Assembly (NCBI GenBank): GCA_021299375.1
Contig: JAJTGR010000037.1
Location: 1-38,236 of the forward strand
DNA length: 38,236 nucleotides
DNA from: Gemmatimonadota bacterium
GTDB lineage: Bacteria; Gemmatimonadota; Gemmatimonadetes; Gemmatimonadales; Gemmatimonadaceae
Direction: 5' to 3'
The notes beneath the pieces were generated by a model that made no database searches, had not been told where the DNA came from, and worked only from the letters and a program-made list of their open reading frames with translations. Within the stretch, counting starts at the first letter, position 1. Each line of letters starts with the position of its first letter. Position numbers and translations under genes: made by a program. Positions 14,740-36,971 of this stretch are shown one piece after another.

Positions 14740-15185
14740 GGCCGGCAGATGAACATCCTCGATCGGATGAAGGACGTCAAGAACCAGCGCCTGTACGGCT
14801 TTCAGGATCTGTGGTTCTCGAACGGACGCAACGATCCGTCGCTGCTGCACGAGAAGCCCGCCGCCGACCTGTTCCGCCAGGGAGGTGTACCGGCCGCGCG
14901 CATCGCGTTCTTGCGCGTGTTCATCGATTACGGCGACGGGCCGCGCTACGCCGGGCTGTACACCGGCGTCGACGTCCTCGACGACACCATGATCCGCAAC
15001 CAGTTCGGCGAGGACGTGGGCAACATCTGCAAGCCCGAGTCGCGCTTCCCGTCGTTCACCGCGTCGCCGTTCGAGCGGACTGCTCGAGGCCACTTTCGAC
15101 GTGCCGTACCTCCTGCGCTGGCTGGCCATCACCACCGCCATCGTCAACTGGGACAGCGACGGCGCCATCGCCCACCATCGCCCAC
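14740..15185 (+). pseudogene. decayed CotH-family kinase gene
   Basis: The frame from about 14750 encodes NILDRMKDVKNQRLYGFQDL, then SLLHEKPAADLFRQGGVPAA, RVFIDYGDGPRYAGLYTGVD and GNICKPESRFPS. This is the CotH (spore-coat-protein-H-like protein kinase) pattern, in which intact proteins have several hundred residues. After about 15060 the homology jumps frame: codons in the +1 frame read LLEATFDVPYLLRWLAITTA and IVNWDSDG, a later CotH segment, so roughly 60 codons are missing and the frame is broken. Homology ends near 15170 in a gcccaccatc direct repeat. The 5' end is also missing. It is a remnant rather than a functional gene; the long open frame joining it to the serine hydrolase is accidental. 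Confidence 0.8.
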
Positions 15186-15303
15186 CATCGCCGGCCGCCG
15201 GCCGCCGCGGCGTCGCGGAACCGGCGCGTGGCGTCGGGTACGGCGCGAGCGCATCTTGGGCCATTCCTTGTTTCTCTCCATGCGCCCGAACCCCACGCGC
15301 TCC

Positions 15304-17301
15304 ATGCGGCCCTCCCTCCGCCTTCCGTTCGCCCTCGGCCTGCTGGTCTGCACGGTGAGTCCTCGGCTCGCCGCCCAGTCGATCCTGTCACCCGGTAAAG
15401 CGGTTGCCGGGAACGTGGCGGGCAAGGACACCGCCCGCTTCACGTTGCGCGCCGACTCCAATGCCGTGGTCAGACTTCGGGTGGAGCAGCGTCCGGCCAA
15501 CGTGGCACTGCGGCTGCTTGGCCCGAAGAAGTCCGTCGTGCGCGCGGTGAACGGCAGTGCCAAAGGTTACGAAGCGCTGCAGGTCATGACCACGGAGGCG
15601 GGCGAGTATCAGCTGCAGGTCACCGCCGCCGACAGCACGGGCGGCGCGTTCGCCGTCACCCTGCTCGCCAACGAGCGGCTCTCTACCGATCCGCGGCGAC
15701 TCACCGATCAGCTGCTGGCCCCGTGGGATCGGCGTGATGGTCCGGGTGCGGCGGTGGCGGTGTGGCGCGGCGGGCGCACGCTGTTCGCCAAGGCGTACGG
15801 CATGGCCAACCTGGCGTACGACATTCCATTTACGGTCAGTACGCCCACCAACATCGGCTCCACCTCCAAACAGTTCACGGCCTTCGCCGTCATGCTGCTG
15901 GTGGAGGAGGGGAAGCTGTCGCTCGACGACGATGTCCGGAAGCATCTCCCCGAGCTGAGGAGTTTCGGCCAGACGGTCACGGTGCGGCACCTGCTCACGC
16001 ACACGAGCGGCTACCGCGAGCTGTACAATGCGCTCGTGCTCACGGGCCGCCGCATTGACGAAGCCGACTACGTGGGGCGCGAGGAGTTCATCCCGCTCAT
16101 CAACCGCCAGCCCGTGCTGCAGAGCGCCCCCGGCGCCGAGTTCAATTACAACAACACGGCGTTCGGCCTCGCGGCCATGATCGTGGCTCGGGCGAGTGGA
16201 ATGCCGTTCGAGGAGTTCATGGCGGAGCGCGTGTTCGCGCCCATCGGCATGACCAGCACGCGTATCCGCGCCGACGTGCGTGTGCCCGTGCCGGGCGCCA
16301 CCGTGGGGTACTCCCGCAACGCGAGCGGCGTATGGCGCGACCTGGGTGATTTGGGCGGCAGCATGGGCGCCGGCGGCATCTACACCACGCTCGCCGATCT
16401 GCAGAAGTGGGCCGAGCATCTGGCCAGCCCCAAGGTGGGGAGCACGGCGAGCCTCACGCAGATGATGACGCCGTACACGCTCACCGACGGCAAGCGTACC
16501 GGTTACGGCTTCGGGCTGTTCATCGACACGCAGAACGACCAGCGGCGCGTGCACCACGGCGGGGCGGACGTGTCGCACCGCTCCATGCTGGCCCTGTACC
16601 CCGACCTGAACGCCGGCATCACGGTGCAGAGCAACGACGGCGCCTTCGACTCCAACATCGCCTTCCGGCTGGCGCAGGCGTTCTTCCCCGAGCTCGCCCC
16701 CAAGCCGCCGGTGGTGGTGGCGGCCTTCGATGCCGCCACGTACGACCCGAAGCAGTTCGACGAGTTCACGGGGTCGTACCCGCTCGATGCGGCGCCGCAG
16801 TTCGTGCTCACCTTCACGCGCGCCGGGGACACGCTCTATACCCAGGCCACCGGCCAGATGAAGCTGCGGCTCCGCCCCACGTCGGATACGTCGTTTGCCG
16901 TGCAGGGTGTGCCGGCCTCGGTGGAGTTCACCCGTGATGCTGCGAAACAGGTGACGGGCGCCGTGCTCGTGCAGGGTGGCGCTCGGCAGAAGGCCACCCG
17001 TCAGACCGCCGCGGTTGTCGTCGCCGCCCCGTGGCGTCCGACGGTGGCCGAGCTGAACGCGCTGAGCGGCCGTTATTTCAGTGAGGAGCTCGAGACCTAC
17101 TGGGAGTTCGTCGTCAGCGACGGCAAGCTGGTGGTGAAGCACCGCCGAACCAGCGACATCCCGCTGACCGCCACCACGAAGGACACCTTCAGTGGCGGCG
17201 CGTTCACCCTCACCCTCGAACGCGATCGCAGTGGACAGGCGATCGGCTTCTACGCCAACGCCACGCGGTCACGCGACATCCGGTTCGCGCGGGTGCGTTG
17301 A
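15304..17301 (+). CDS. secreted serine hydrolase, beta-lactamase/PBP fold, with N-terminal PPC-like domain
   Basis: The product is 665 aa. A Sec signal peptide (MRPSLRLPFALGLLVC, ending near RLAAQ) is followed by a pre-peptidase C-terminal-like beta domain (residues about 30-125; ARFTLRADSNAVVRLRVEQR, AGEYQLQVTAAD). The catalytic domain (PF00144) has the nucleophile motif STSK (in NIGSTSKQFTAFAVML), the second motif YNN (FNYNNTAFGL) and the third HGG (VHHGGADVSHRS). A C-terminal beta domain of about 200 residues resembles the lipocalin-like tails of such esterases/peptidases. Likely roles are D-amino-acid peptidase, esterase or beta-lactamase in the periplasm. ATG 15280 is an alternative start 8 codons upstream. 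It lies just after the CotH remnant and convergent with the glycoside hydrolase gene. Confidence 0.9.
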   Translation: MRPSLRLPFALGLLVCTVSPRLAAQSILSPGKAVAGNVAGKDTARFTLRADSNAVVRLRVEQRPANVALRLLGPKKSVVRAVNGSAKGYEALQVMTTEAGEYQLQVTAADSTGGAFAVTLLANERLSTDPRRLTDQLLAPWDRRDGPGAAVAVWRGGRTLFAKAYGMANLAYDIPFTVSTPTNIGSTSKQFTAFAVMLLVEEGKLSLDDDVRKHLPELRSFGQTVTVRHLLTHTSGYRELYNALVLTGRRIDEADYVGREEFIPLINRQPVLQSAPGAEFNYNNTAFGLAAMIVARASGMPFEEFMAERVFAPIGMTSTRIRADVRVPVPGATVGYSRNASGVWRDLGDLGGSMGAGGIYTTLADLQKWAEHLASPKVGSTASLTQMMTPYTLTDGKRTGYGFGLFIDTQNDQRRVHHGGADVSHRSMLALYPDLNAGITVQSNDGAFDSNIAFRLAQAFFPELAPKPPVVVAAFDAATYDPKQFDEFTGSYPLDAAPQFVLTFTRAGDTLYTQATGQMKLRLRPTSDTSFAVQGVPASVEFTRDAAKQVTGAVLVQGGARQKATRQTAAVVVAAPWRPTVAELNALSGRYFSEELETYWEFVVSDGKLVVKHRRTSDIPLTATTKDTFSGGAFTLTLERDRSGQAIGFYANATRSRDIRFARVR

Positions 17302-20701: not shown

Positions 20702-20854
20702 TCAGCGAGAGAACGCCGCCAACCACTGGCCGAAGGCAAAACCATGCTCGATGAGGCGCAGCGTGATCACCAGCAACACCATCCCGACCACCATGGCCAG
20801 CGCGATGGTCAGCGGCCGATGCCTGCGCGCACCGTGAATCCGTGGGTCGATCAT
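20702..20854 (-). CDS. 50-aa single-pass membrane protein
   Basis: A short frame from ATG 20854 encodes a basic N-terminus (MIDPRIHGARRHRP), one membrane helix (LTIALAMVVGMVLLVITLRL) and a short tail ending WLAAFSR. A good ribosome site, GGAG, lies five bases upstream (20860-20863), which is notable because most leader genes here lack one. It is followed after 12 bp by the zinc-ribbon membrane protein gene, suggesting the two products interact. The function is unknown; the topology is probably N-in. Confidence 0.7.
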   Translation of the reverse strand: MIDPRIHGARRHRPLTIALAMVVGMVLLVITLRLIEHGFAFGQWLAAFSR

Positions 20855-20966
20855 GCCAACTCCAGTTGAACGTGACACCGTGGAGAATAGAAACCGCCAC
20901 ACCGCGGCGGCATCGGCGGGCCGCGCTCCGTACAACTTCCTCACACCACACGCATTGTTCGGCGCA

Positions 20967-20989: not shown

Positions 20990-23900
20990 ATGCGCACACT
21001 CTGCCTGCTGTTCCTCACGCTCGTGTTCACCGCGACGCCTGCTCGAGTCGCGGCCCAGATCGGCACCACCACCGAGCTCATCACCGGGCGCGTCACGGGT
21101 CCGGACAGTGTACCCCTGGCCGGTGCCCGGGTCGACGTCACGTCGGTGGCGAGCGGCGTGACGCGCCGCACCACCACCCGGAGCGACGGCCGCTACACCC
21201 TGCTCTTTCGCGAGGGCGGCTCGCAGTTCCGGGTCACCATCACGGCCCTCGGCATGACACCGGCCACCTTCGCGCTCAACCGGCGCGGTGACGAGGACCG
21301 GCTCGTGGCCGACGTGCGCATGTCCACGACCGCGACCACGCTGGCCCACGTGCAGGTCCGGGCGCGGAATGCCCGTCCGGGATCGGCGCCGGCGTCGACC
21401 GCCGGGGCCAGCGAAGCGGTCATTCCACCGGGGTATCTCGTCCGCTTTCCCGTGACGCCGGGCGATCTCAACGCCGCCGCGACCTTGGTGCCGGGGGTGG
21501 TGGCGATCGCCGGTGGCGACAGCGCCTCGGGCGGTGTTTCGGTGGGCGGGCAGCCCGCCAACCAGAACAATCTCACGCTCGACGGCAGCTCGTTCCTGTT
21601 CGGGTCGGTGCCGCAGAACAGCGTGCGCGCGGTGCGCGTCGTGACCAATGCCTACGATCCCGCCCGCGGACAGTTCACCGGTGGTCAGGTGGCCACCACG
21701 ACCATCGCGGGTACATCACGCACTCTTGGCACCGCCACGCTCAACGCGCAGCCGCGCCCGCTCCAGCGCCCCATCGTGTCCACGCGCACCTTCGATCAGC
21801 GCTTCACGCAGGGGAACGCGGGGGTGGGCATCGGCGGGCCGCTGGTGAAGGACCGCGTGTTCTACTTCGCCTCGCTCGATCTCGACCAGCGCCACGAGCC
21901 GCTCGCCTCGCTGCTCGACGTGACGCCGGCCATCTCGGGGAACCTCGGCATCGCCGGTGACTCCCTTGGCCGCTTTCTCGCCTTCACCGATCGCGCCGGG
22001 CTGACCCGCCGCACCGATGCGCCCGACGCGCGTATCACCTCGTCGCTGTCGTCGCTGGTGCGGATCGACTGGGACCTGTCACCGACCACCGCGCTCATGG
22101 TGCGCGCCGACTACCGCGCGACCCAACTCAACCTCGCCCGGGCCGGCAGCCTCGCGCTCCCGTCGGTCGCGGGTACCAGTGCGTCACAGGGTGGCGGCGT
22201 CCTCACCTCACTCACCTCGTCGCTGGGCGGATTCATCAACGAGTTCCGCGCCTACGTCTCGCGGGATCGGCAGGCGGTGTCGCTCGACCGGCCCATGCCG
22301 CTGGGTATCGTGAATGTCACCTCGCAGCTCGACGGCGGTCGCACGGGGCAGGCGCAATTGCTCTTCGGCGGCAGCGCGAGTCTGCCGCGTACCGTGGAGT
22401 CGCAGCTCACCGAAGCGAGCAACGAAGTGAGCCGACTGCTCGGGGGCAGTCACCGCCTCAAGCTCGGCCTGCTCGTGAATGCGCAGCGTTCCCGCATCGA
22501 CGGCGTCGGGAATCAGCAGGGCACGTTCCTCTTCAACTCGCTCTCCGATCTCGACGCCAACCGCCCGGCGCTCTACGCCCGCGTGCTGGGGCGCAACACG
22601 CAGCAGGCCGGCACCACGACCGGCGGCCTGTATCTCGCCGACGCGTGGCGTGTGTCGCCGTCGCTGCAGGTCGTGTACGGCAGCCGACTCGAGGCCACCC
22701 GTCTGTCGGGTCTCCCCGCGGCCAACGGCGCCGTCGCGCAGGCCTTCGGCGCCCGCACCGATGTCTGGCCTACCGACGTGCGCCTCACGCCGCGCGTGGG
22801 CTTCACGTATCTGTTGGGCAACGTGGCCGGCATTCCGTCGGGCACGATCAAGGGTGGGGTGGGGCTCTTCCGCGGAACGATCCCCACCGGGCTCGTGACC
22901 GCGGTGGCGAACGGCACCGGGCTGCCGGACGCGCAGCAGCAGGTGATCTGCACCGGCGCCGAGGTGCCGGTCCCCGACTGGAGCGCGTTCGGTGCCGGCG
23001 ACGCGGCCCCCGATCGCTGCCTCGGTGGGCCGAGCGTCGGCGTCAGCGCCACGACCCGGCCGGCCGTGCTGCTCTTCGACCAACGATTCGGCGCCCCCGA
23101 GGTGTGGCGCGCCTCGCTGGGCTACACCAAGCAGTTCCGCCTGCGCTGGGCCGTTGCTGCCGATGTGGTCTACTCGCATGGCACGCGGTCCCCGCTGGCC
23201 GTCGATCGCAATCTCGGTCCGGCCGGCCTGTCGCTCGCCGACGAAGGCAATCGCCCGGTCTTTGCCGCGCCCGGCGAAGTCATCGCCGCCACTGGCGCCG
23301 CCACCGGCAACGGCACGCGGCCGCAGGCGGCGTTCGGCCCCGTGCTCGCCATCGGCCGGGGAGCGCAGTCGCGCGCCACGCAGGCCACGCTCACGCTGGC
23401 CGGCCCGTCCTTCCGCGGCGGCGGCACCTCGTTCTCGTATACCTGGAACCGCGTGCGGGACATCTCCAACGGCTTCGGACTCGGCAGCGCGATCGCGACC
23501 ACCGACGGCAACCCCAATCGACTCGAATGGGGCCCCAGCGATCTGGAACGACGACATCAGGTCGTGGCGCAGCAGATCAGCAACTTTCCGCACGGGTTCG
23601 AACTCACGTTCGTGGGGCGCCTGCTCTCCGGCGCGCGCTACACGCCCATGGTGAACGGCGACGTCAACGCCGACGGTACCCGCAACGATCGCGCGTATGT
23701 GCCACGCGCCGAGGGCACCGATGACCTGTCGGCCGGCCTGCGCACCCTGCTGCTGGCGACCGATGCCCGGGCCGCGGCGTGCCTGCGCGCGCAGATGGGG
23801 CGCATCGCGAGCCGCAACAGCTGCACCACGCCGTGGACGCCACAGCTCGACCTGCAGCTCAACTGGCGTCCGCGCGCCCGCCGCTTCGACGATCGCCTCA

Positions 23901-24565
23901 CGCTGTCGCTGCTGGCCACCAACACGCTCGCCGGCCTCGATCGGCTGCTGCATGGCGCGTCCATCAAGGGGTGGGGCCAGCCGCTGCTCCCCGATCGTCA
24001 GCTGCTCACCGTCACCGGCTTCGACGCCGCGGCCGGTCGCTATCGCTATGCCGTGAACGAGCGCTTCGGGACGCCCATCGCCACCCGCAATCCGTTCGGC
24101 GTGCCCTTTCAGCTGTCGCTGCGCGGACAGATCGCCATCGGCACCGAGCCGTCGCGCGCGAACCTGCGGGCGCTCAGCGGCAACGGTGGCGCCGACTCCA
24201 TCAGCGTCGTTCGTGCCCGCGTGGCCCGTCAGATTCCCTATCCCCTCGACAGTCTGCTGCGCGTGGCCGATTCGCTCGGGCTCGAGCTCACGCCCGCCCA
24301 GCGCACGACCATCACCGAGGCCAATCAGCAGTACCGCGTGGCAGCCGAGAAGGGGCTGGACGACATCGTGGCCCTCCTCACCAGCAACGGCGGACGTCCC
24401 GACCTCGGTGCCATCGCGCCCAGGCTGCAGCAGGCCAACCTCGTGCTCGTGAAGGCCATTCAGGAATCCCTCAAGATCGTGGAGCGCGCCCTCACCCCGG
24501 TGCAGTGGAACAGGCTGCCGGACCGGATCCGCTATCCGTTCGGCCAGCAGGGCCCCGGCGTCTAG
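20990..24565 (+). CDS. TonB-dependent-receptor-like outer-membrane protein with carboxypeptidase-like N-domain and helical C-tail
   Basis: The product is 1,191 aa. A Sec signal peptide (MRTLCLLFLTLVFTATPARV, cleaved near VAAQ) is followed by a carboxypeptidase-regulatory-like domain (residues about 30-110; ITGRVTGPDSVPLAGARVDV, SDGRYTLLFREGG), a plug domain (SVGGQPANQNNLTLDGSSFL, 185-215) and a long beta-barrel region. The domain order is that of OmpA-like/TonB-dependent transporter proteins; no clear TonB box is seen. The final 120 residues are atypical: a helical stretch with LTPAQRTTITEANQQYRVAA and ALTPVQWNRLPDRIRYPF, resembling the LTxxQ repeats of Spy-like periplasmic proteins. It has no Shine-Dalgarno sequence and a hairpin abuts the start. 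Its stop shares CTAG with the convergent kinase stop. The substrate is unknown. Confidence 0.88.
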   Translation: MRTLCLLFLTLVFTATPARVAAQIGTTTELITGRVTGPDSVPLAGARVDVTSVASGVTRRTTTRSDGRYTLLFREGGSQFRVTITALGMTPATFALNRRGDEDRLVADVRMSTTATTLAHVQVRARNARPGSAPASTAGASEAVIPPGYLVRFPVTPGDLNAAATLVPGVVAIAGGDSASGGVSVGGQPANQNNLTLDGSSFLFGSVPQNSVRAVRVVTNAYDPARGQFTGGQVATTTIAGTSRTLGTATLNAQPRPLQRPIVSTRTFDQRFTQGNAGVGIGGPLVKDRVFYFASLDLDQRHEPLASLLDVTPAISGNLGIAGDSLGRFLAFTDRAGLTRRTDAPDARITSSLSSLVRIDWDLSPTTALMVRADYRATQLNLARAGSLALPSVAGTSASQGGGVLTSLTSSLGGFINEFRAYVSRDRQAVSLDRPMPLGIVNVTSQLDGGRTGQAQLLFGGSASLPRTVESQLTEASNEVSRLLGGSHRLKLGLLVNAQRSRIDGVGNQQGTFLFNSLSDLDANRPALYARVLGRNTQQAGTTTGGLYLADAWRVSPSLQVVYGSRLEATRLSGLPAANGAVAQAFGARTDVWPTDVRLTPRVGFTYLLGNVAGIPSGTIKGGVGLFRGTIPTGLVTAVANGTGLPDAQQQVICTGAEVPVPDWSAFGAGDAAPDRCLGGPSVGVSATTRPAVLLFDQRFGAPEVWRASLGYTKQFRLRWAVAADVVYSHGTRSPLAVDRNLGPAGLSLADEGNRPVFAAPGEVIAATGAATGNGTRPQAAFGPVLAIGRGAQSRATQATLTLAGPSFRGGGTSFSYTWNRVRDISNGFGLGSAIATTDGNPNRLEWGPSDLERRHQVVAQQISNFPHGFELTFVGRLLSGARYTPMVNGDVNADGTRNDRAYVPRAEGTDDLSAGLRTLLLATDARAAACLRAQMGRIASRNSCTTPWTPQLDLQLNWRPRARRFDDRLTLSLLATNTLAGLDRLLHGASIKGWGQPLLPDRQLLTVTGFDAAAGRYRYAVNERFGTPIATRNPFGVPFQLSLRGQIAIGTEPSRANLRALSGNGGADSISVVRARVARQIPYPLDSLLRVADSLGLELTPAQRTTITEANQQYRVAAEKGLDDIVALLTSNGGRPDLGAIAPRLQQANLVLVKAIQESLKIVERALTPVQWNRLPDRIRYPFGQQGPGV

Positions 24566-26280
24566 TGCGAGGTGGGAGCGCCGGTGTCCGGTGCCATCGG
24601 GAGCTCCACGGCGAACGTGGCCCCAGTGGTGCGTGCGGCATCGGCGCCCTCGCCCTGGTCGACGTACACCCGGCCGTTGGCCCGCTCCACGAGATCGCGC
24701 ACCACGGCCAGCCCGATGCCGGTGCCGTGCACCGCACTCGACGCGGCAGTGTGTCCTCGTCGATACGGCAGCCAGATCAGCTGCTGCTCGCGGGCCGGAA
24801 TGCCCGGGCCCTGATCACGGATGGCCAGACGCACCCTGTCCGTACCCGACACCATGGCCTGCGCCGCGATCTGCACCGACTGACCGGCCGGGCCGTACTT
24901 GATGGCGTTGTCGAGCAGATTGAGCAGCACCTGATGCACATCGTCCGCCGGCGCCTGCACGGCGAGCGTCGCGGGCACACGGACATCCCACTGGACCCGG
25001 CGCTCGGCCGCCAGCGCGCCCAGCGTGTCGCAGGCCCGCTGCACCGCGTGGGCGAGCACGACCACGTCCTGCGCCGGCGGCGCCGCCTGCCCGGTGCGGA
25101 CGAACGTGAGCGTGCGATCGATGAGCAGCGACAGTCGCTCCGACTCCTTCTCGATCACGCGCAGGGCACGGGCACGGTCGGCGGGGTCCGGCAGCAGATC
25201 GAGCCGCAGCAGCTCGGCATACATGCGCACCTGGGTGAGCGGCGTGCGCAACTCGTGCGACACGCCCGCCACGAACGCGGCGCGCAGGCGCTGCGACTCC
25301 GTTTCGCGCCGCTGGTACTGCGCCCGCCACCACAGCAGCAGCACGCCGATGGTGAGCAGGGCGACAATACCGAACACCGCATCGGTGAGCAGCAGCGAGG
25401 GCTGGACCAGCGCCAGCAGCTCGGCCACTTCGCGCTCGCGCACGAGCACCCACGGCGTGCCGCGCACGGGACTCGTGGCATACACCACGGGGACCCCGCG
25501 CAACCCCAGTCCCAGGCCACCTCGCGGTGCGCCGGCGCGGGCGGCCGCCGGGTACACGCTGCGCGCCAGCGTGCCGGTATCCAGTGCGGCGCGCAGGCTG
25601 GCGGGGATCGACACCGTGGCCGGCGCCCGCGTGCCACCGCCTGCCTCACTCGCCGCGATGAGCTGCACGGGCCGTTCGGGCGCGCCACGACCGGCGGCCG
25701 GGGTCGGGGCGACGTCGGGGTTGAGCAGCAGGGCGGTCCGCTGACTGCGGTCGTCGGGAGCGGCCGCGTTGAAGTGCGGGAACGTGGCTTCGGTCACCGC
25801 CAGCCGCAGCACCACCGCCGCGCCACGCGGTGCCGAGTCGGCCACCGGGGCGCGGAACTCGACGAGACTCACCCGCTCGCCATCGCCCACCATCGTCTGC
25901 AGTCCCGCGCCGTCGGCAGGGCTGCCGGTGGCATCGAGGGTACCGTCGACATACCCGCCCTCGGCGACCATGGCCTGGATGATCGGCACCGCCTTGCCAC
26001 GCGTTGCACCGGACCCCGACACCGTCCCTACCGCACCCACCGCAGCCGCCACGAGGCGTGCATTGGTGGCCCGCACGTCCAGCCAGTCGGCCAGCAACTG
26101 GCTGGAGAGCGAGACCGACATGGGAAGGGCCCGCGCGTACTCGGCGAGAAACCCGCGCGCGTTCCGGCGATGCAGCGCCGCAATGGCCAGCGCGGCTGCG
26201 GCCGCCGCGCCCGTGACCAGCACGAGCCGCCGCCGCGTGAGCCACGGCCAGCGCGGAATGGGGGGCGCGCCGGTGGTCAT
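24562..26280 (-). CDS. membrane sensor histidine kinase
   Basis: The product is 572 aa. A first membrane helix (residues about 18-36) and a second (298-317, AVFGIVALLTIGVLLLWW) bracket a periplasmic sensor region of some 260 residues with no recognised family. The kinase core has an H-box VAGVSHELRTPLTQVRMY (His342), an N-box LLNLLDNAIKYGP, G1 DQGPGIP and G2 GTGIGLAVV. ATG 26280 overlaps the response regulator stop (ATGA), so regulator and kinase are coupled, regulator first. An upstream extension in frame overlaps the regulator and is not used. The stop codon is convergent with the outer-membrane receptor and shares four bases with it. Confidence 0.93.
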   Translation of the reverse strand: MTTGAPPIPRWPWLTRRRLVLVTGAAAAAALAIAALHRRNARGFLAEYARALPMSVSLSSQLLADWLDVRATNARLVAAAVGAVGTVSGSGATRGKAVPIIQAMVAEGGYVDGTLDATGSPADGAGLQTMVGDGERVSLVEFRAPVADSAPRGAAVVLRLAVTEATFPHFNAAAPDDRSQRTALLLNPDVAPTPAAGRGAPERPVQLIAASEAGGGTRAPATVSIPASLRAALDTGTLARSVYPAAARAGAPRGGLGLGLRGVPVVYATSPVRGTPWVLVREREVAELLALVQPSLLLTDAVFGIVALLTIGVLLLWWRAQYQRRETESQRLRAAFVAGVSHELRTPLTQVRMYAELLRLDLLPDPADRARALRVIEKESERLSLLIDRTLTFVRTGQAAPPAQDVVVLAHAVQRACDTLGALAAERRVQWDVRVPATLAVQAPADDVHQVLLNLLDNAIKYGPAGQSVQIAAQAMVSGTDRVRLAIRDQGPGIPAREQQLIWLPYRRGHTAASSAVHGTGIGLAVVRDLVERANGRVYVDQGEGADAARTTGATFAVELPMAPDTGAPTSH

Positions 26281-27044
26281 GGATCGAAGCGATAGCCGGT
26301 CTTGAACACCGTAACGATGTGGCGTGGACGCGAGGGCTCCGGTTCGATCTTGCGCCGCAACTCCGAGATGTGCAGGTCGACGGTGCGCGTCTGGATGTCC
26401 GGTGCATGGCCCCACACATCACGCAGCAGCGTCGCCCGGCTGAGCACGACGCCCGGCTGACGCAGGAACGTGAGCAGCAGCGCGAACTCCAGCGGCGACA
26501 GCGTCACCGGTTCACCATCGCGCCAGGCCCGCCGACCGACATCATCCACCAGCACCCGCCCGAAGCGTCGCCCCTCGGGCATGGACGCCACGCTCCCCTG
26601 GCTGCGCCGCAGCAGTGCCTGCACCCGCTCCACCAGCTCCAGCACGCCGAACGGTTTGGTCACGTAGTCGTCGGCACCGGCCCGGAAGCCGCGCACCTTG
26701 TCGGCCTCCTCACCGCGCGCGCTGAGGATGAGCACGGGCACCATGCAGCCGTGACGCCGCAGCTCGGCGAGCACCGCGTAGCCGTCGGGCGGCGGGATCA
26801 TGAGGTCGAGAATGATGAGCGCCGGCGTGACTCCCTTCACGCGATCGAGCGCCTCGCGCCCGCTGCCCACCACGTCGACGGTGTGGCCCTGGGCCTCGAG
26901 CGTGCGCTGGAGGCCGAAGGCCAGATCGGCATTGTCCTCCACGATCAGCACATGCGCCGCTGCCGATGACTTCTCGGGCGGCAGAGCACTCGTCGCGGCG
27001 GTCACGGAGTCGATGGAGGACACCCGTGAAAGGTAGGCGGCCAC
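26277..27044 (-). CDS. OmpR/PhoB-family response regulator
   Basis: The product is 255 aa. A receiver domain begins near residue 31 (HVLIVEDNADL) with Asp80 in LIILDLMIPPPDGY as the phosphoryl site and Lys130 in DYVTKPFG. The C-terminal winged-helix output domain (about 155-255) has VTLSPLEFALLLTFLRQPG, the recognition region DIQTRTVDLHISELRRKIEP and VFKTGYRFDP. About 30 residues before the receiver are disordered-looking, so the true start could be later, but no better start codon is evident. It forms a two-gene operon with the kinase. The divergent 188 bp (27045-27231) in front of the M16 operon contains an 11-bp direct repeat, the usual spacing for this family's binding sites. Confidence 0.95.
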   Translation of the reverse strand: MAAYLSRVSSIDSVTAATSALPPEKSSAAAHVLIVEDNADLAFGLQRTLEAQGHTVDVVGSGREALDRVKGVTPALIILDLMIPPPDGYAVLAELRRHGCMVPVLILSARGEEADKVRGFRAGADDYVTKPFGVLELVERVQALLRRSQGSVASMPEGRRFGRVLVDDVGRRAWRDGEPVTLSPLEFALLLTFLRQPGVVLSRATLLRDVWGHAPDIQTRTVDLHISELRRKIEPEPSRPRHIVTVFKTGYRFDP

Positions 27045-27087
27045 GACCGCGCGGGAGAGTGCGCGCCCCGACCATGGCGGCCGGTCA

Positions 27088-27109
27088 GTTGTACGGAGGT
27101 TGTATGGAG
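27088..27109. promoter_or_regulatory. 11-bp direct repeat, candidate OmpR-type regulator site
   Basis: The words gttgtacggag (27088-27098) and gttgtatggag (27099-27109) are adjacent direct repeats with one mismatch. An 11-bp tandem spacing is typical for OmpR/PhoB-type proteins. A weaker gttgtaagcat lies at 27141-27151. The site is 44 bp upstream of the regulator start and about 120 bp upstream of the M16 operon, so it could control either or both. Confidence 0.55.
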
Positions 27110-27231
27110 CAGGGTCCGAACGCGGCGGTCACGTTCGGGGGTTGTAAGCATGCGCTGTACGCACTGCGTGCCGCGCACCGCACGCCGTATGGTTGGCAGC
27201 ACCATCACTCTCCCCATCCAACCGTGTGCGG

Positions 27232-28605
27232 ATGTCCATGTTGAATTCCTTTCGGCCGGCAGCGTACGGCGCCGTGGTCAGTCTCGTGCTGGCGTGTCAC
27301 GGCGACCCGCTGGATGCCCAATCCCGTACTCCCGTCGCGAGTGAGAGCTATACGCTGCCCAACGGGCTGCGGGTGATCCTCGCCGAGGATCATGCGGCGC
27401 AGGTCGTGACGGTGAACGTGTGGTACGATGTCGGGGCGCGCAACGAACCGCCCGGCCGTACCGGCTTCGCCCATCTCTTCGAACACATGATGTTTCAGGG
27501 CTCAGCCAACGTGGCCAAGGGCGATCACCTGTCGTTCGTGCAGCGTGCCGGCGGGACGCTGAACGGCACCACGGCCGAGGATCGTACCAACGACTTCCAG
27601 TCGCTTCCCTCCAATCGGCTCAACCTGGGGCTGTGGCTCGAAGCCGAGCGCATGCGCTCGCTGCGCATCACGCAGGAGCACTTCGAGAACCAGCGCGAGA
27701 CCGTGAAGGAGGAGCGCCGGCTGCGGCTCGACAATCCGCCGTACGCCGCGGCGTTCTATGCCGCCTTTGCCGGTCTCTTCGATCGTGAACGCTGCTTCGC
27801 GTACGGACACGAGATCATCGGCACCATGGATGATCTCAACGCCGCCACCCTCGACGACGTCACGGCGTTTCACCGCACGTACTACCGCCCCAACAACGCC
27901 ACGCTCGTGGTGACGGGCGACTTCGTGACGGCGGAGGCGAAGGCGCTGATCTCCCGGTACTTCAGCGACATCCCGCGCGGTCCCGCGCCGCCACCGGTCA
28001 CCTGTGACCAGCCGGCCAATCCCGGCGCACAGCGCCACCGCGTCACCGATGCCAAGGCCACGCTGCCGGCCGTGCTCATGCTGTGGCGCACCCCTGCCTA
28101 CGACAGCGCTGAATGGCCGGCTCTCGACCTGCTGCGCGTGGTGCTCGGCGGAGGAGCAAGCTCCCGGCTCAACCGGGCGGTGGTACGCGAGGCGAGGAGT
28201 GCCGCCTCCATCGAGGTGCTGCTCGGACTCGGCGCGCCGCGCCGTGGCCCCAACCTCTTCGGCATCCTCGCCTTCGCCAGTCCGGGGCGCTCGGCGGACT
28301 CCGTGGAGGTGCTGCTGCAACGGGAAGTGTCCAGGGTGGCCACCGAGGGCGTGACGGAGGAGGAGCTCACCAAGGCCAAGAACGTGTTCCGTGCCTCGCG
28401 GGTTGCCCAGCTCGCGACCAGTCTCGGACGCGCCGAGGCGCTGCAGACGGCGACGATGTTCCTCGGGTCCCCGGCCGCGCTGGGGCGCGATCTCGATCGC
28501 CATCAGGCGGTCACCGTGAACGACATCAGGCGTGCGGCCGAGGCCGTGCTCCGCACCGACAACAGCGCCGTCACCCACATCGTCCCGGCGACGAGGACCC
28601 CGTGA
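27232..28605 (+). CDS. M16 zinc peptidase, catalytic subunit
   Basis: The product is 457 aa. The inverted zinc-binding motif HLFEH (His81, Glu84, His85) and a Glu161 located 76 residues after the second His (in KEERRLRLDNPPY) complete the M16 active site. It is preceded by a signal peptide (MLNSFRPAAYGAVVSLVL, then ACHG with a possible lipobox Cys22), so it acts in the periplasm or on the membrane. The C-terminal half has the M16 inactive-domain fold (AVLMLWRTPAYDSAEWPALD). The start could be ATG 27232 or 27238. It is the first gene of a three-gene operon with overlapping starts (GTGA, ATGA). Such paired M16 enzymes digest small peptides or unfolded proteins. Confidence 0.95.
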   Translation: MSMLNSFRPAAYGAVVSLVLACHGDPLDAQSRTPVASESYTLPNGLRVILAEDHAAQVVTVNVWYDVGARNEPPGRTGFAHLFEHMMFQGSANVAKGDHLSFVQRAGGTLNGTTAEDRTNDFQSLPSNRLNLGLWLEAERMRSLRITQEHFENQRETVKEERRLRLDNPPYAAAFYAAFAGLFDRERCFAYGHEIIGTMDDLNAATLDDVTAFHRTYYRPNNATLVVTGDFVTAEAKALISRYFSDIPRGPAPPPVTCDQPANPGAQRHRVTDAKATLPAVLMLWRTPAYDSAEWPALDLLRVVLGGGASSRLNRAVVREARSAASIEVLLGLGAPRRGPNLFGILAFASPGRSADSVEVLLQREVSRVATEGVTEEELTKAKNVFRASRVAQLATSLGRAEALQTATMFLGSPAALGRDLDRHQAVTVNDIRRAAEAVLRTDNSAVTHIVPATRTP

Positions 28606-30146
28606 ACCTTCTGCACTCGTTTCCGCACATGTCTCCGCGCACGTTGCCGCGCGCGTTGCCGCACCTGTTTTCGCTGCGCACTGTGGCCGGCGCCGCCCTG
28701 CTGCTCGCGGCCGGCAGTTCGCTGCTCATGGCGCAGGCGCCATCCACCCCGCCGGCGCCGCTGCCGCTGCGATCGGCGTCGCTGCCCCCCTTTCAGGAGA
28801 TGACGCTGCGGAATGGCGTGCGGATGCTGCTCGTCGAGAACCATCGCCAGCCCTCGGTGGTGTTTCGGCTGGTGATGCCGGCCGGCGCCAGGTACGATGC
28901 CGCCGGCAAGTCCGGCACGGCCGCCCTGCTGGCCACGCTGCTCACCAAGGGCGCAGGCTCACGGACCGCCGAGCAGTTCACTGCCGCGATCGAGAACACG
29001 GGCGGCGGGCTGCAAGCGGTGGTCGACAGCGATTTCCTCAACGTGTTCGGCTCGGTGCTCTCCGACGCGGCGCCGCTGGCGTTCACCTTGCTCGGGGAGG
29101 CCGTCACCCGGCCCACGCTGGCCCCGGCGGAGTTCGCGCTCGCCCAGGCGCAGTCCTTGTCGGGGTTGCAGATGAGCAGTGCCTCGCCGGCGTTTCTCGC
29201 CACCACGACGCTGCTGGCCGGGCTGTACGGCACACATCCGTATGCCGCGGTCCCGACGCCGGCGACGGTGCGCGCCATCACGCCGGACGATGTCCGGCAG
29301 TTCCACACGAGTCATGTCCGGCCGCGTGGTGCGCTGCTGGTCGTGGCCGGTGACATCACCCCGGCGCAGCTGCGCGCCTGGGCGGGCGCGGCGTTCGCGA
29401 GCTGGACCGGCGCTCCGCCGGCATCAGGCGCTGCCGCACCGGCACCGCCATCCCGACGCCGTGCGGAGATCGTGCTCGTGCATCGTCCGGGATCGGTCCA
29501 GTCGAACATCCTGATCGGCAATCTCGCGCTCGGCCCCGCCGACTCGTCGCGGCTGGCCGCCGAGCTCGCGCTGCAGGTGCTGGGCGGCGGGAGTGATGGA
29601 CGCCTGTTCAAGGTGCTCCGGGAGCAGAAGAGTTGGACGTACGGTGCGTATGCCTCCATGAGCCGGCCGCTCGGACTCGGCCTGTTTCAGGCTTCGGCCG
29701 AGGTCCGCACCGCGGTCACCGACAGCGCCGTCACCGAGATGCTGGCGCAACTCGCCCGCCTTGGCCGGGAGCCGATACCGACCAAGGAGCTGGAGGACAC
29801 GCGCAGTGGCATGGTGGGCTCGTTCCCGCTCGCCATCGAAACCCCCGGAGGCCTTGCGGCGCTGGTGGCGTTCGTGAAGCTCTATGGCGTGCCGGCCGAC
29901 TATCTGCAGAGCTATCGCCTGAAGCTGAGCCGCGTGACCTCGGCCCAGGTGACGGCCGCCGCGCGTCGGGTCGTGCGCCCGGACGAGGCGCTGATCGTGG
30001 TCGTGGGCGATGCCGTGGCGCTGTACGACAAGCTCGCGGCCATTGCGCCCGTCACCCTGCGCAGCGCCGACGGCCGAGCACTCCAGCCGGCCGAGCTGAT
30101 GCCGAAGCGCACGCCACCCGGACCCAGCACTCGAGAGGACTCATGA
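28602..30146 (+). CDS. M16 peptidase-like partner subunit without zinc site
   Basis: The product is 514 aa from GTG 28602. The GTG overlaps the upstream TGA (GTGA) and has GAGGA four bases upstream; ATG 28629 is the alternative. A signal peptide follows (LRTVAGAALLLAAGSSLLMA). The position of the HxxEH motif reads TAALLATLLTKGAG, so no zinc site is left, while the R/Y region LREQKSWTYGAYASM, which closes on the substrate in the partner's cleft, is kept. This is the classical arrangement of heterodimeric bacterial M16B enzymes: one catalytic subunit and one substrate-binding subunit. It is probably periplasmic with its partner. Confidence 0.93.
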   Translation: MNLLHSFPHMSPRTLPRALPHLFSLRTVAGAALLLAAGSSLLMAQAPSTPPAPLPLRSASLPPFQEMTLRNGVRMLLVENHRQPSVVFRLVMPAGARYDAAGKSGTAALLATLLTKGAGSRTAEQFTAAIENTGGGLQAVVDSDFLNVFGSVLSDAAPLAFTLLGEAVTRPTLAPAEFALAQAQSLSGLQMSSASPAFLATTTLLAGLYGTHPYAAVPTPATVRAITPDDVRQFHTSHVRPRGALLVVAGDITPAQLRAWAGAAFASWTGAPPASGAAAPAPPSRRRAEIVLVHRPGSVQSNILIGNLALGPADSSRLAAELALQVLGGGSDGRLFKVLREQKSWTYGAYASMSRPLGLGLFQASAEVRTAVTDSAVTEMLAQLARLGREPIPTKELEDTRSGMVGSFPLAIETPGGLAALVAFVKLYGVPADYLQSYRLKLSRVTSAQVTAAARRVVRPDEALIVVVGDAVALYDKLAAIAPVTLRSADGRALQPAELMPKRTPPGPSTREDS

Positions 30147-30625
30147 AGCACCACGCGTTCCGCGCCGTTGTCGCCGGCCTGCTGTTGTGGACGGCGGCCG
30201 CCACCCCCGTTGCCGCCCAGACCAGCGATAGCACGGCGGTGCTGCAGCAACTCCAGCGCATGCTCGACGGCATGCGCACCCGCAACGCCGACGAGCTGCG
30301 CGCGGTGTTTCACGACCAGGTGCGCATGACGCTGCTGCGCCCCGCGCCGGGCGGCGGACGGCGCGCGGCGATTCTCACCGGCGAGCAGTTCATCGCCGCG
30401 GCCACCAATCCCAACGGGCCCGTGCTCGATGAGCCCATCCGCAACCCGGTCGTGCACCTCGATGCCGACCTGGCGGTCGTGTGGGCCGAGTACCAGGTGC
30501 GGAACGCCGGCAAGGTCAGCCACTGCGGGTACGACGCATTCACCTTCGTGCGCGTGGACGGCGTGTGGAAGCTCATCGCTGTGGCCGACACGTTTCGGCA
30601 GCAGGGGTGCGGCCCCGTGTGGTGA
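30143..30625 (+). CDS. secreted NTF2-like (SnoaL/DUF4440-type) protein
   Basis: The product is 160 aa with a signal peptide (MKHHAFRAVVAGLLLWTA, cleaved near VAAQ). The mature 135 residues look like the cone-shaped NTF2-like fold: a helical start (VLQQLQRMLDGMRTRNADELRAVF), then FHDQVRM, VVHLDADLAVVWAEYQVR and YDAFTFVRVDGVWKLIAVAD. The family includes enzymes and binding proteins; I cannot assign a role here. ATG 30143 overlaps the stop of the M16 partner (ATGA) with a GAGAGGA ribosome site, so it belongs to the M16 operon. A strong hairpin terminator follows 10 bases after the stop. Confidence 0.88.
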   Translation: MKHHAFRAVVAGLLLWTAAATPVAAQTSDSTAVLQQLQRMLDGMRTRNADELRAVFHDQVRMTLLRPAPGGGRRAAILTGEQFIAAATNPNGPVLDEPIRNPVVHLDADLAVVWAEYQVRNAGKVSHCGYDAFTFVRVDGVWKLIAVADTFRQQGCGPVW

Positions 30626-33509: not shown

Positions 33510-36500
33510 ATGTCACTCCCCCTGCGCGGGATCGCCTCCGGCGCGATCCTGACCCTGGCGGGCTCGCTCGCCCTGCCGCCCGCGGCACTCGCCCAACGCG
33601 CGCCCCGCCCCGCCGCCAATGCCGCCCTCGTGGCGCCGTCGGTCGCCACCCAGTTCGACGCCCTGCACTTCCGCTCCATTGGCCCGGCCACCATGTCGGG
33701 GCGTATCGCCGACGTGGCGGTGTTCGAGAACAACCCGGCCATCTACTACGTGGCCACCGCCCACGGCGGCGTGTGGAAGACCGTCAACAACGGCACCACC
33801 TTTACGCCGCAGTTCCAGAACGAGGGGCTGATCGCCACCGGCGACGTGGCCGTCTCGCAGATCAACCCCGACCTCGTGTGGGTGGGCGCCGGCGAAAGCA
33901 ACAACCGCCAGAGCACCTCGTGGGGCGGCGGCATCTACAAGAGCACCGACGGTGGCAAGACCTACGCCAACATGGGGCTCGCGAATTCCAAGCACATCAA
34001 TCGGGTGCTCATTCACCCCACCAACAACGATGTGGTGTTCGTGGCCGCCACCGGCCCGCTCTTCGGCCCCGGCGGCGATCGCGGCGTGTACAAGACCACC
34101 GACGGCGGCAGGACGTGGAAGCAGGTGCTCACGGGCGACGACGACACCGGCGCCAATGACATCGCCATGTCGGCCTCCGACCCCAATGTGATGTTCGCGA
34201 GCCTGTACCAGCGCCGCCGCACCACCTGCTGCATGAACGGCGGTGGCCCCGGCAGCGCGCTGTACAAGAGCACCGACGGCGGCGACACGTGGACCAAGGT
34301 CACCGGCACCGGCTTCCCCACCGGCGCACTCGGCCGCATCACCATGGACGTGTTCCGCCAGAGCGCCAACATCGTGTACGCCATGGTCGAGGGCCCCTCG
34401 GCGGCGGGTCGCCCGGCCGCGGCCGAGGGCGCCGAGGCGGCACCAAGTGGAGCTGCTGGTGGCGCGGGCATGCAGCCGCAGGCCCCGGCGCCGGCCGCGA
34501 ACGCGACCGGCGTGTACCGCAGCACCGACGGCGGCGCCACGTGGACGAAGCAGAGCGGCACCAACCCGCGCCCCATGTACTTCAGCCAGCTGCGGGTGGA
34601 CCCGGTGAACCCCGAGCGGCTGTACCTCGGCGGCGTGGGCATGCACCTGTCGCTGGACGGCGGCAGGAGCTTCGAGACCGACGTCGCGCAGGTCACGCAC
34701 GACGACGTACACGCCATCTGGATCAACCCGAAGAACCCCGACCACGTACTCACCGGCAACGACGGCGGGCTGGCGGTGTCGTACGACATGAGCCGCACCT
34801 GGCAGTTCATCCCCAACCTGCCGGTGGGGCTGTTCTACCATGTGAGCTTCGACATGGAGTGGCCGTACAACGTGTGCGGCGGCATGCAGGACAACTACAA
34901 CTGGTGCGGCCCCAGCGCCTCGCGCCACAGCCGCGGCATCTTCAACTACGACTGGTTCCAGATCCTCGGCGGCGACGGCTTCGTGGCCATCCCCGACCTG
35001 CGTGACTCGCGCATCGTGTACACCGAGTCGCAGGACGGCAACATCATCCGGCGCAACAAGGTCACCGGCGAGTCGCGCTCCATCCGCCCCACTGCGCAGA
35101 ACGTGACCAACGCGCAGCCGCGCGAGGCGTACCGCTTTCACTGGGATACGCCGCTCATGTTCTCGCCGCACGACCCCGGCGTGCTGCTGGCCGCGGCCAA
35201 CAAGGTGTTCCGCTCGCGCGACCGTGGTGACAGCTGGGAAGCCATCAGCCCCGATCTCACCAGGAGCGCGAGCCGCGACAGCCTGGTCACCATGGGGCTC
35301 AAGGGGAGCGACATCCGCATTGCCCGCAACGACGGCATCTCGCAGTGGCCCACCATCGTGACGCTGGCCGAGAGCCCCAAGCAGGCCGGCGTGTTCTATA
35401 CGGGTACGGACGACGGCACGGTGAGCGTGTCGCGTGACGACGGCAAGACGTGGCAGACCATCACGAAGAACATCCCCGGTTTCCCGGCGGGCTTCGTGTA
35501 TGTGAGCGAAGTGGTGCCGAGCCGGTTCGATGCCGCCACCGTGTACGTGGTGGTGGGCAACTACCGCGAGAACGACTACGCGCCGTACGTGTGGATGAGC
35601 CGCGACTACGGGGCCACCTTCACGCGCCTCGTGAACGGCCTGAGCGGCGAGACGGTGCGCACGCTTACGGAGGACACGCGCAACCCCGACGTGCTGTACG
35701 TGGGCACCGAGACCGGCATCTTCGTGACGCTCGACCGTGGGGCGAGTTGGAAGCGGCTCAAGGCCAACTTCCCCACCGTGCGGGTGGACGAGCTCACCAT
35801 TCATCCGCGTGACAACGCGCTGATCGTGGCCACGCACGGGCGCGCGCTGTGGATTCTCGATCACTTGGGGCCCATCCAGGAGTACGCGGCGGCGGCCAAG
35901 GCCGACGCGGCGCTGTTCACCCCCGGCATGCAGCTGCAGTGGAAGGCCAAGGACGACCGCAACGACGAGTTCTGGGGGCATCAGTTCTTCACCGGCGAGA
36001 ACCCGCCTACGGAGGCGGTCATTCAGTTCCACCTCAAGGCGCCGGTGAAGAACCCCGTGCTGCGTGTGCTCGACGGCAGCGGCGCGCTGGTGCGCGAGCT
36101 GGCGGTGCCGGCGGCGAAGAACGTGGCCGGCATTCAGACGGTGTGCTGGGACCAACGCGTCGAGCCGGTGCGTGATGTGGCGGCGCCTGTTGGAGGTGGA
36201 CAGGGAGGAGGGGGTCAGGGAGCAGGAGGGAGTGGGTTCCAGGGGCCGCGCCGGGTGATTCCGGGGTATCCCGAGCCGTTGCCGCCGGTAGGGTACGAGG
36301 CGGAGAACCCCTGTGCGCCGGCCGGTGGTGCGGGTGGCGGTGGTTTCCGCTTCGGTGGTGGCGCCAACCAGGGCCCGATGGTGGTGCCGGGCACGTACAC
36401 CGTGGCGCTGGTGGTGGACGAGAAGGAAGTTGCGCGCAAGCCGCTCACGCTGGTGGCTGATCCGCAGGTGGCGCTCACCGCCGAGCAGCGCGTGGCGTAC

Positions 36501-36971
36501 AACGGGCTGGCCATGGAGCTGCATGCCGCGCAGCAGGCGGGTGCCGCGGCCGCCGCACCGCTCGCCGCGCTCAACGCGCAGATGCGTGCCGTGGCGGCCA
36601 AGGTGGACAGCAGCACCACGCTGCCCGCGGACGTGAAGACCGAGTTCGCGCAGTTCCGCAAGGACTTCGACGCGCTGCGTGCCAAGTTCGGCGTGGGTGT
36701 GCCGGCGTTCGGCGGCCCGGGCGGCGGTGGCGGCGGCTTTGGCGGTGGTGGCGCCGGCAACGACGCCAACGTGCTCGCGCGCGTGGGTCAGGCCAAGAAC
36801 AACGTGCTGGCGGTGTGGGAGCTGCCGAGTGAGGCGCTGCGGAAGCAGGCCGATGCCGCGAAGACGGCGCTGGCGGCGGCGGTGGCCGAGGCGAACGCGT
36901 TCATGCCGAAGGCGCGGGCGGTGAGTGGGAAGTTGGCGGCGAGCGGGATTGTGATGAACGTGGGGAACTGA
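33510..36971 (+). CDS. large secreted BNR/sortilin-type beta-propeller protein
   Basis: The product is 1,153 aa. The signal peptide (MSLPLRGIASGAILTLAGSL, cleaved near LAQ) is followed by a long BNR/VPS10-like beta-propeller region (about residues 45-790) with many Asp-box repeats such as STDGGKTY, TTDGGRTW, STDGGDTW, STDGGATW. The WD40/YVTN/BNR-like signature FRSIGPATMSGRIADVAV at the start matches the Gemmatimonadota and Bacteroidota exoproteins often called glycosyl hydrolase; catalytic residues are not evident. The C-terminal 350 residues carry a beta domain, two Gly-rich linkers (around GGGQGGGGQGAGG and FGGPGGGGGGFGGGG) and helical segments with PLAALNAQMRAVAAKVD. Its leader is almost pure pyrimidine, with no Shine-Dalgarno sequence. 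Confidence 0.9.
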   Translation: MSLPLRGIASGAILTLAGSLALPPAALAQRAPRPAANAALVAPSVATQFDALHFRSIGPATMSGRIADVAVFENNPAIYYVATAHGGVWKTVNNGTTFTPQFQNEGLIATGDVAVSQINPDLVWVGAGESNNRQSTSWGGGIYKSTDGGKTYANMGLANSKHINRVLIHPTNNDVVFVAATGPLFGPGGDRGVYKTTDGGRTWKQVLTGDDDTGANDIAMSASDPNVMFASLYQRRRTTCCMNGGGPGSALYKSTDGGDTWTKVTGTGFPTGALGRITMDVFRQSANIVYAMVEGPSAAGRPAAAEGAEAAPSGAAGGAGMQPQAPAPAANATGVYRSTDGGATWTKQSGTNPRPMYFSQLRVDPVNPERLYLGGVGMHLSLDGGRSFETDVAQVTHDDVHAIWINPKNPDHVLTGNDGGLAVSYDMSRTWQFIPNLPVGLFYHVSFDMEWPYNVCGGMQDNYNWCGPSASRHSRGIFNYDWFQILGGDGFVAIPDLRDSRIVYTESQDGNIIRRNKVTGESRSIRPTAQNVTNAQPREAYRFHWDTPLMFSPHDPGVLLAAANKVFRSRDRGDSWEAISPDLTRSASRDSLVTMGLKGSDIRIARNDGISQWPTIVTLAESPKQAGVFYTGTDDGTVSVSRDDGKTWQTITKNIPGFPAGFVYVSEVVPSRFDAATVYVVVGNYRENDYAPYVWMSRDYGATFTRLVNGLSGETVRTLTEDTRNPDVLYVGTETGIFVTLDRGASWKRLKANFPTVRVDELTIHPRDNALIVATHGRALWILDHLGPIQEYAAAAKADAALFTPGMQLQWKAKDDRNDEFWGHQFFTGENPPTEAVIQFHLKAPVKNPVLRVLDGSGALVRELAVPAAKNVAGIQTVCWDQRVEPVRDVAAPVGGGQGGGGQGAGGSGFQGPRRVIPGYPEPLPPVGYEAENPCAPAGGAGGGGFRFGGGANQGPMVVPGTYTVALVVDEKEVARKPLTLVADPQVALTAEQRVAYNGLAMELHAAQQAGAAAAAPLAALNAQMRAVAAKVDSSTTLPADVKTEFAQFRKDFDALRAKFGVGVPAFGGPGGGGGGFGGGGAGNDANVLARVGQAKNNVLAVWELPSEALRKQADAAKTALAAAVAEANAFMPKARAVSGKLAASGIVMNVGN

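Follow-up and report, generated by a model that had tools for sequence, protein, structure and literature searches.

Gene content and organization of the locus

The 38,236-nucleotide stretch analysed here (hereafter the window; contig C20 of the 4.48 Mb, 116-contig genome G000) comes from a Gemmatimonadota bacterium of soil and water. It carries, side by side, the genes for a TonB-dependent transporter (TBDT)-type receptor, a sensor histidine kinase and its OmpR/PhoB-type response regulator, the two subunits of an M16 peptidase (M16A and M16B) and an NTF2-like secreted protein (Table 1). An earlier reading of the sequence alone, referred to below as the original prediction, had placed and named all six genes correctly; every one has a family match, which sets the gene calls beyond chance. 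Its assignment of the peptidase to a two-subunit type was likewise borne out, as M16A has the HLFEH motif and M16B lacks HxxEH. The evidence presented below indicates that the receptor and the two-component system (20.9-27.1 kb) probably constitute an autoregulated import module resembling PfeA/PfeRS.

The start of the kinase gene overlaps the regulator stop by 4 bases. The receptor and kinase genes are convergent and their stop codons overlap, and the two-component genes diverge from the M16 genes across about 190 bp, an arrangement of strands that the original prediction does not mention. The start of the NTF2-like gene overlaps the M16B stop.

Table 1. Features of the locus, in window coordinates
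Feature	Position	Strand	Evidence or remark
ORF (open reading frame) for 50-aa single-helix membrane protein	20705..20854	-	divergent from receptor
Receptor-side box TACAACTTCCTCACA	20931..20945	+	12/13 to consensus; 44 bp before receptor ATG
TBDT-type receptor, 1191 aa	20990..24565	+	Pfam CarboxypepD_reg, OMP_b-brl_4; weak plug; AlphaFold2 (AF2) barrel like TBDT structures
Receptor N-terminal carboxypeptidase-regulatory-like domain, residues 31-97	21080..21280	+	PF13620 E 3.8e-11; AF2 beta sandwich residues 29-106
Receptor C-terminal LTXXQ (Spy/CpxP-like) helical domain, residues 1085-1181	24242..24532	+	LTxxQ motifs, PF07813, Spy profile
Sensor histidine kinase, 572 aa	24562..26280	-	HisKA 7e-17, HATPase_c 6e-22
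Kinase periplasmic dCache (double PDC) sensor domain	25381..26178	-	AF2 model, Foldseek, VIA
OmpR/PhoB-type response regulator	26277..27023 (alternative start 27044)	-	Response_reg 8e-26, Trans_reg_C 1e-24
Regulator-side box 1 TACAACCTCCGTACA	27090..27104	-	13/13; 66 bp before regulator start
Box 2 TACAACCCCCGAACG	27132..27146	-	11/13; regulator/M16A divergent region
M16 peptidase catalytic subunit M16A (HLFEH)	27232..28605	+	PF00675/PF05193; closest PDB chain 3amj_C E 8e-59
M16 peptidase non-catalytic subunit M16B	28629..30146	+	no HxxEH; C-terminal extension of relatives absent
NTF2/SnoaL-like secreted protein	30143..30625	+	DUF4440, SnoaL_4 matches

Conservation of the receptor/two-component module

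The relatives identified by name belong to the Gemmatimonadota, several of them to the Gemmatimonadaceae. A search for the kinase in 61 relatives matched six genomes, the host's own included, and a search of 30 genomes of the genus returned the same six. Searching 395 genomes of the phylum with the sensor domain gave six matches, five in genomes of the genus (again including the host) and one in G119, a member of another genus. Together, these searches identified seven genomes: G000, G017, G004, G025, G007, G020 and G119. Genes were called with a custom script that performed badly on some G004 and G043 loci (L018, L027, L040); G004 genes were taken from translation instead. The G004 kinase frame is open, the apparent internal stops lying upstream of the real start.

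The regulator gene adjoins the kinase gene in all seven genomes, and the receptor gene is adjacent and convergent to the pair in every genome except G020. The window receptor is 78% identical to its counterpart in G017, 70% in G004, 62% in G025, 64% in G007 (where the receptor is cut by the contig end) and 68% in G119. Thus, the receptor and the regulator/kinase pair form a conserved convergent module in the Gemmatimonadota genomes that have this kinase.

If the original prediction is right, the genes should remain neighbours in relatives. This holds for the receptor, kinase and regulator genes but not for the others, the M16 and NTF2-like genes adjoining the kinase gene in the window alone. 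In the closest relative, G017, the locus is syntenic on both flanks: orthologs of window genes W01-W06 and W08-W14 are followed by the receptor, kinase and regulator genes and then by W28 (33510-36971). No W07 ortholog was seen at this locus, which also lacks W15-W19 and W23-W27, the latter comprising the genes for M16A, M16B, the NTF2-like protein, an FG-GAP protein and an AAA/DUF4143 protein. The M16 pair and the NTF2-like gene are lineage-specific neighbours, outside the conserved module, and the protein-cutting enzymes appear to have come to lie beside the receptor later.

A direct-repeat box upstream of the receptor and regulator genes

By-eye comparison of upstream regions in the window and close relatives yielded a box consensus, TACAACNTCCGNACA, found upstream of both the receptor and the regulator genes in the window and in G017, and upstream of the receptor gene in G025. 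TACAAC repeats at the best site with an 11-bp period, as in PhoB/OmpR-type boxes. Sites were scored as matches to the 13 fixed bases of the consensus, and for the window and G119 the upstream sequences were shuffled 4000 times, with dinucleotides preserved, to see how often each score is reached. In the window, the score of the receptor-side box is reached by none of the shuffles, that of regulator-side box 1 by a single one and, with box 1 removed, that of box 2 by ten. The two G017 sites score 13/13 and 12/13, and the receptor-side sites of G025 and G004 score 12/13 and 11/13, respectively.

The other-genus genome, G119, was examined only after the box had been derived. Here, a perfect match (13/13), TACAACTTCCGTACA, lies 65 bp before the regulator start and a 12/13 match, TACAACTTCCAGACA, lies 55 bp before the receptor start. 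Neither score is reached by any of the 4000 shuffles, and no other site in the 20 kb comes within two mismatches of the consensus. When at most one mismatch is allowed, the box occurs at three sites in the whole of G000 (two of them at this locus), five in G017 and two in G025. Because the same box precedes both the receptor and the regulator genes, the receptor is likely to be under the control of this regulator, through the predicted site common to the two upstream regions. The original prediction had the regulator acting on the receptor or on the peptidases; the common box speaks for the first of these. The M16 genes share with the regulator a divergent region that contains two boxes and might be controlled as well.

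Several observations weigh against an autoregulated import module. Upstream of the regulator gene, the match to the box is poor in G025 (9/13), G007 (9/13), G004 (10/13) and G020 (9/13). In the one-contig genome G020, the kinase and regulator genes are present but the 19.5 kb retrieved contain no receptor gene; among the 11 of 32 candidates that were scored, the closest to the receptor is a paralog with 32% identity. The G119 kinase (L074:9837-11198) lacks about 80 residues that match the membrane-distal Cache module. Finally, over six whole genomes the box has 15 matches with at most one mismatch, against 18 for a reversed-pattern control. Since the total is no higher than the control, the argument from the box rests on where the sites are located: five of the 15 fall at the module locus, all intergenic, and nine of the other ten lie inside called coding sequence, the last one (G004:C25:76852) being outside.

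The persistence of the G020 two-component system without the receptor would also suit a different explanation, namely that the box is the site of another regulator, of global or stress type, and that the two-component system governs unrelated genes. A global regulator, however, would not be expected to have its sites outside coding sequence almost solely at the module locus, nor does this explanation sit well with the box accompanying the module into another genus. We consider it unlikely.

The autoregulated module could work as follows. The receptor would bring a ligand into the periplasm, where the dCache domain of the kinase would read the ligand or a product of it. The kinase would then phosphorylate the OmpR/PhoB-type regulator, and the latter would bind the direct repeats of 11-bp period upstream of the receptor gene and of its own, raising the expression of both. 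Gene-order conservation, the common box and its rarity, the domain make-up and the predicted folds are what the analysis demonstrates; from these we infer binding of the regulator to the box, the activating sign, import of a ligand by the receptor and the direction of transport. No description of the module or of its box was found in the open-licence literature searched. For a phylum of which few members are in culture, a guess from gene position thus becomes a defined, testable regulon made up of one regulator, one box and two transcription units.

The 50-aa membrane protein encoded next to the receptor in the window has a homolog in G017 (38% identity over 34 aa) encoded upstream of the regulator (L017:5701-5850, +), and a box lies nearby both times. 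Two of 30 genus genomes have the protein, and whether it belongs to the module is uncertain.

The receptor and its C-terminal domain

The receptor matches the Pfam families CarboxypepD_reg (E 4e-11) and, for the barrel, OMP_b-brl_4 (E 9e-37). Its plug match is weak (E 0.004, below the Pfam cut-off), and the plug region, residues 113-243, is modelled too poorly to be recognised, with a predicted local distance difference test score (pLDDT) under 50. The AF2 model as a whole is weak (pLDDT 63, predicted template modelling score (pTM) 0.58) and consists of a beta sandwich (29-106), barrel strands (246-1050) and a helical hairpin (1071-1181). A stretch following the N-terminal domain is a candidate TonB box. 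In Foldseek, the top-ranked structures for the model are YddB (E 3e-17, template modelling score to the query 0.37) and FusA (E 1e-15, score 0.34). VIA, whose alignments cover residues 196-1050, outside the tail, ranks PirA and Cir first (top Z 20.1) and places FusA (Z 17.8, 600 residues aligned, root-mean-square deviation (rmsd) 5.6) level with many TBDTs. At the sequence level, no PDB receptor, YddB included, is matched up to E 1, and a profile search returned nothing relevant up to E 10. A role in lasso-peptide or PQQ import (PqqU) was set aside in view of this lack of sequence relation. PqqU has been reported in Gemmatimonadetes (PMC12124388).

In the C-terminal tail, whose helices are modelled at a pLDDT of about 77-87, 68 residues separate two LTxxQ motifs. 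PF07813 (LTXXQ) matches nine of 12 receptor tails at E up to 1, with a best E of 3e-9; the window tail itself gives E 0.02 (16 of 24.3 bits, below the curated cut-off). Profile matches of the tail include Spy (E 0.007) and 5ihf (E 6e-4). Four of the six receptor paralogs read in the host genome (L002, L003, L004 and L006) have a similar tail; the other two (L005 and L007) lack it and terminate with an ordinary final strand.

The Oar-like TonB receptors of the phylum (the window receptor; L002, L003, L004, L006; L017-L033, L074) carry the LTXXQ domain after the last barrel strand, and the tailed receptors consequently lack the usual C-terminal aromatic end. No description of an LTXXQ-tailed TonB receptor was found in the open-licence literature searched. 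A barrel with a Spy/CpxP-like tail is a receptor architecture common in this genome and merits a look of its own.

CpxP restrains CpxA. By analogy, the periplasmic tail might serve as a signal, restraining or activating the dCache kinase according to receptor loading or assembly, so that the receptor would report its own state to the kinase that governs its abundance. The idea is weakened by the presence of the same tail in receptors that lack a neighbouring kinase of this type, and we regard it as very improbable.

The gene neighbourhoods of receptor homologs with about 40% identity (L022-L033, L081-L085) vary: DPP-IV/PD40 proteins at L023 and L026, ETF-QO at L031 and L032, an NtrC-type regulator at L022 and, at L024 and L028, a glycan-like cluster with an ABC exporter, APH-type kinases and ATP-grasp. 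An M16 pair like that of the window is absent from all these loci, and no common function emerges from them. At L024, L028, L083 and L084, the receptor gene closes a cluster for an ABC exporter, two APH-type kinases, a glycosyltransferase-like protein and an ATP-grasp enzyme (Pfam scan of L024 and L028 only). This is perhaps a biosynthetic cluster with a receptor of its own.

The kinase sensor domain

The periplasmic domain of the kinase, for which no Pfam sequence match was found, is modelled as a dCache fold (pLDDT 76, pTM 0.77). The model is nearest to HK1S sensors and to the ligand domains of chemoreceptors (Foldseek, 3lif, E 1.5e-4; VIA, Tlp1, Z 14.6, 216 residues aligned, rmsd 3.9). Judging from this predicted fold, the ligand is likely a small molecule. 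The G119 kinase keeps the proximal module, with a conserved FNxAAPDDRTQRT stretch, and the box and the receptor are retained in that genome.

The M16 pair and its relation to the module

M16A relatives with at least 47% identity numbered 18, of which 16 loci were fetched (those of G044 and G048 were left out). M16B lies next to M16A at all 16, and receptor or kinase orthologs lie near the pair at none. Relatives of the NTF2-like protein (61-65%) in G017, G009 and G006 are encoded on other contigs. G000 has a second M16 pair, on contig C18, whose M16A shares 81% identity with its counterparts in four other members of the genus. The window M16A is only 64-66% identical to the usual copies of the genus, which are 81-99% identical to each other. 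Window M16B, whose best PDB match is 3amj (E 4e-41), is 505 aa long, as opposed to 641-721 aa in 15 of 16 relatives, the remaining one being cut by a contig end; in the one tested (L034:11013-13097), the extra C-terminal part is DUF3108. By sequence comparison, then, the window pair is a diverged and shortened paralog, with an M16B that has lost its C-terminal extension.

In other genera (L043, L044, L045, L048, L049), the M16 pair is preceded by a run of same-strand genes of similar sizes, for proteins of roughly 230-480 aa each. The run is apparently a conserved operon, of which one gene (L043:7298-8053) has no Pfam match.

The original prediction tentatively joined the receptor, the two-component system and the M16 pair into one sensor-controlled, Fus-like system for the uptake and digestion of a protein or peptide. 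All the genes do adjoin in the host genome, two boxes lie between the regulator and M16A, and YddB and FusA head the Foldseek ranking of the receptor model. That model is weak, however, VIA ties FusA with many TBDTs, and the receptor lacks a sequence match among PDB receptors. The peptidase, made of two chains of ~50 kDa and closest to the 3amj heterodimer, is not of the FusC/PqqL type. Linkage fails as well: the pair lies beside the kinase in one of seven genomes and beside neither receptor nor kinase at the 16 other M16 loci, and the locus in G017 keeps synteny on both flanks but lacks the pair. Furthermore, the regions upstream of M16A at those 16 loci contain no box (best 7-9 of 13). Peptide uptake with digestion is thus not supported by conservation, and we consider a Fus-like unit quite improbable. 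A neighbourhood in a single genome can mislead: the peptidases look like partners, yet their placement beside the receptor module is not conserved.

A duplicate M16 pair might instead have inserted itself next to the regulator, separating it from its former neighbour, and now be governed by the regulator through boxes 1 and 2; in this strain alone, the stimulus would then raise the peptidase too. The divergence of the window M16A fits such a recruitment, as does box 2: beyond the single regulator box, no counterpart scoring at least 11/13 occurs upstream of the regulator in G017, G119 or G025, and few shuffles reach its score. Both boxes, which precede the M16A ATG by 86-142 bp, are, however, oriented to the regulator, and box 2, an imperfect site, may serve the regulator alone. 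Recruitment is a hypothesis at the level of this strain, and of low probability beside the autoregulated receptor/two-component module.

Other observations

A single frame at positions 14749-17301 (+) of the window would encode a protein of 850 aa that combines a CotH match at the N-terminus with a beta-lactamase-type domain. The combination is unusual and could be a fusion or an artefact of the gene caller. Rfam and tRNA scans found nothing, and no sigma-70-type promoter was found in a scan of the regions upstream of the receptor and regulator genes.

Comparison with known systems

The module most resembles PfeA-PfeR/PfeS, PirA/PirRS and PeuA/PeuRS, in which the gene for a TonB-dependent receptor lies beside those for an OmpR-type regulator and a membrane kinase; control of the receptor is predicted here. 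PfeS senses periplasmic enterobactin-iron, PfeR induces pfeA, and import of enterobactin-iron is needed before PfeS responds (PMC8001512). Unlike PfeA, the receptor described here combines an Oar/CarboxypepD-type barrel and an LTXXQ tail and is encoded convergently with the two-component system, and the kinase has a dCache sensor, with no evidence for iron.

The ferredoxin uptake system Fus (FusA, FusB, FusC) and YddB(PqqU)/PqqL share with the window a TonB-dependent receptor near an M16 peptidase, an arrangement seen here in one genome only. The differences are the receptor, for which no sequence relation was found, the two-chain M16 enzyme, the unconserved linkage and the presence of a two-component system where Fus has control by Fur. 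No FusB-like TonB is encoded by the six locus genes, and none of the nine flanking genes scanned has a Pfam TonB match. The M16 pair itself is like the two-subunit zinc peptidase 3amj, the best PDB match of both chains, which also combines an active with an inactive subunit; its genomic setting is different here, and the relatives of the inactive subunit carry an additional C-terminal domain that the window copy has lost.

Oar-type TBDTs of Myxococcus likewise have a PF13620 domain ahead of the barrel. Oar is reported to be required for protease secretion (PMC6434023); its likeness to the window receptor is one of domain order only. The receptor tail, lastly, resembles the periplasmic chaperones Spy and CpxP (LTXXQ) in its two LTxxQ motifs, its helical hairpin and its Spy profile match. 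Spy and CpxP are free proteins, however, whereas here the LTXXQ domain extends an outer-membrane barrel at its C-terminus.

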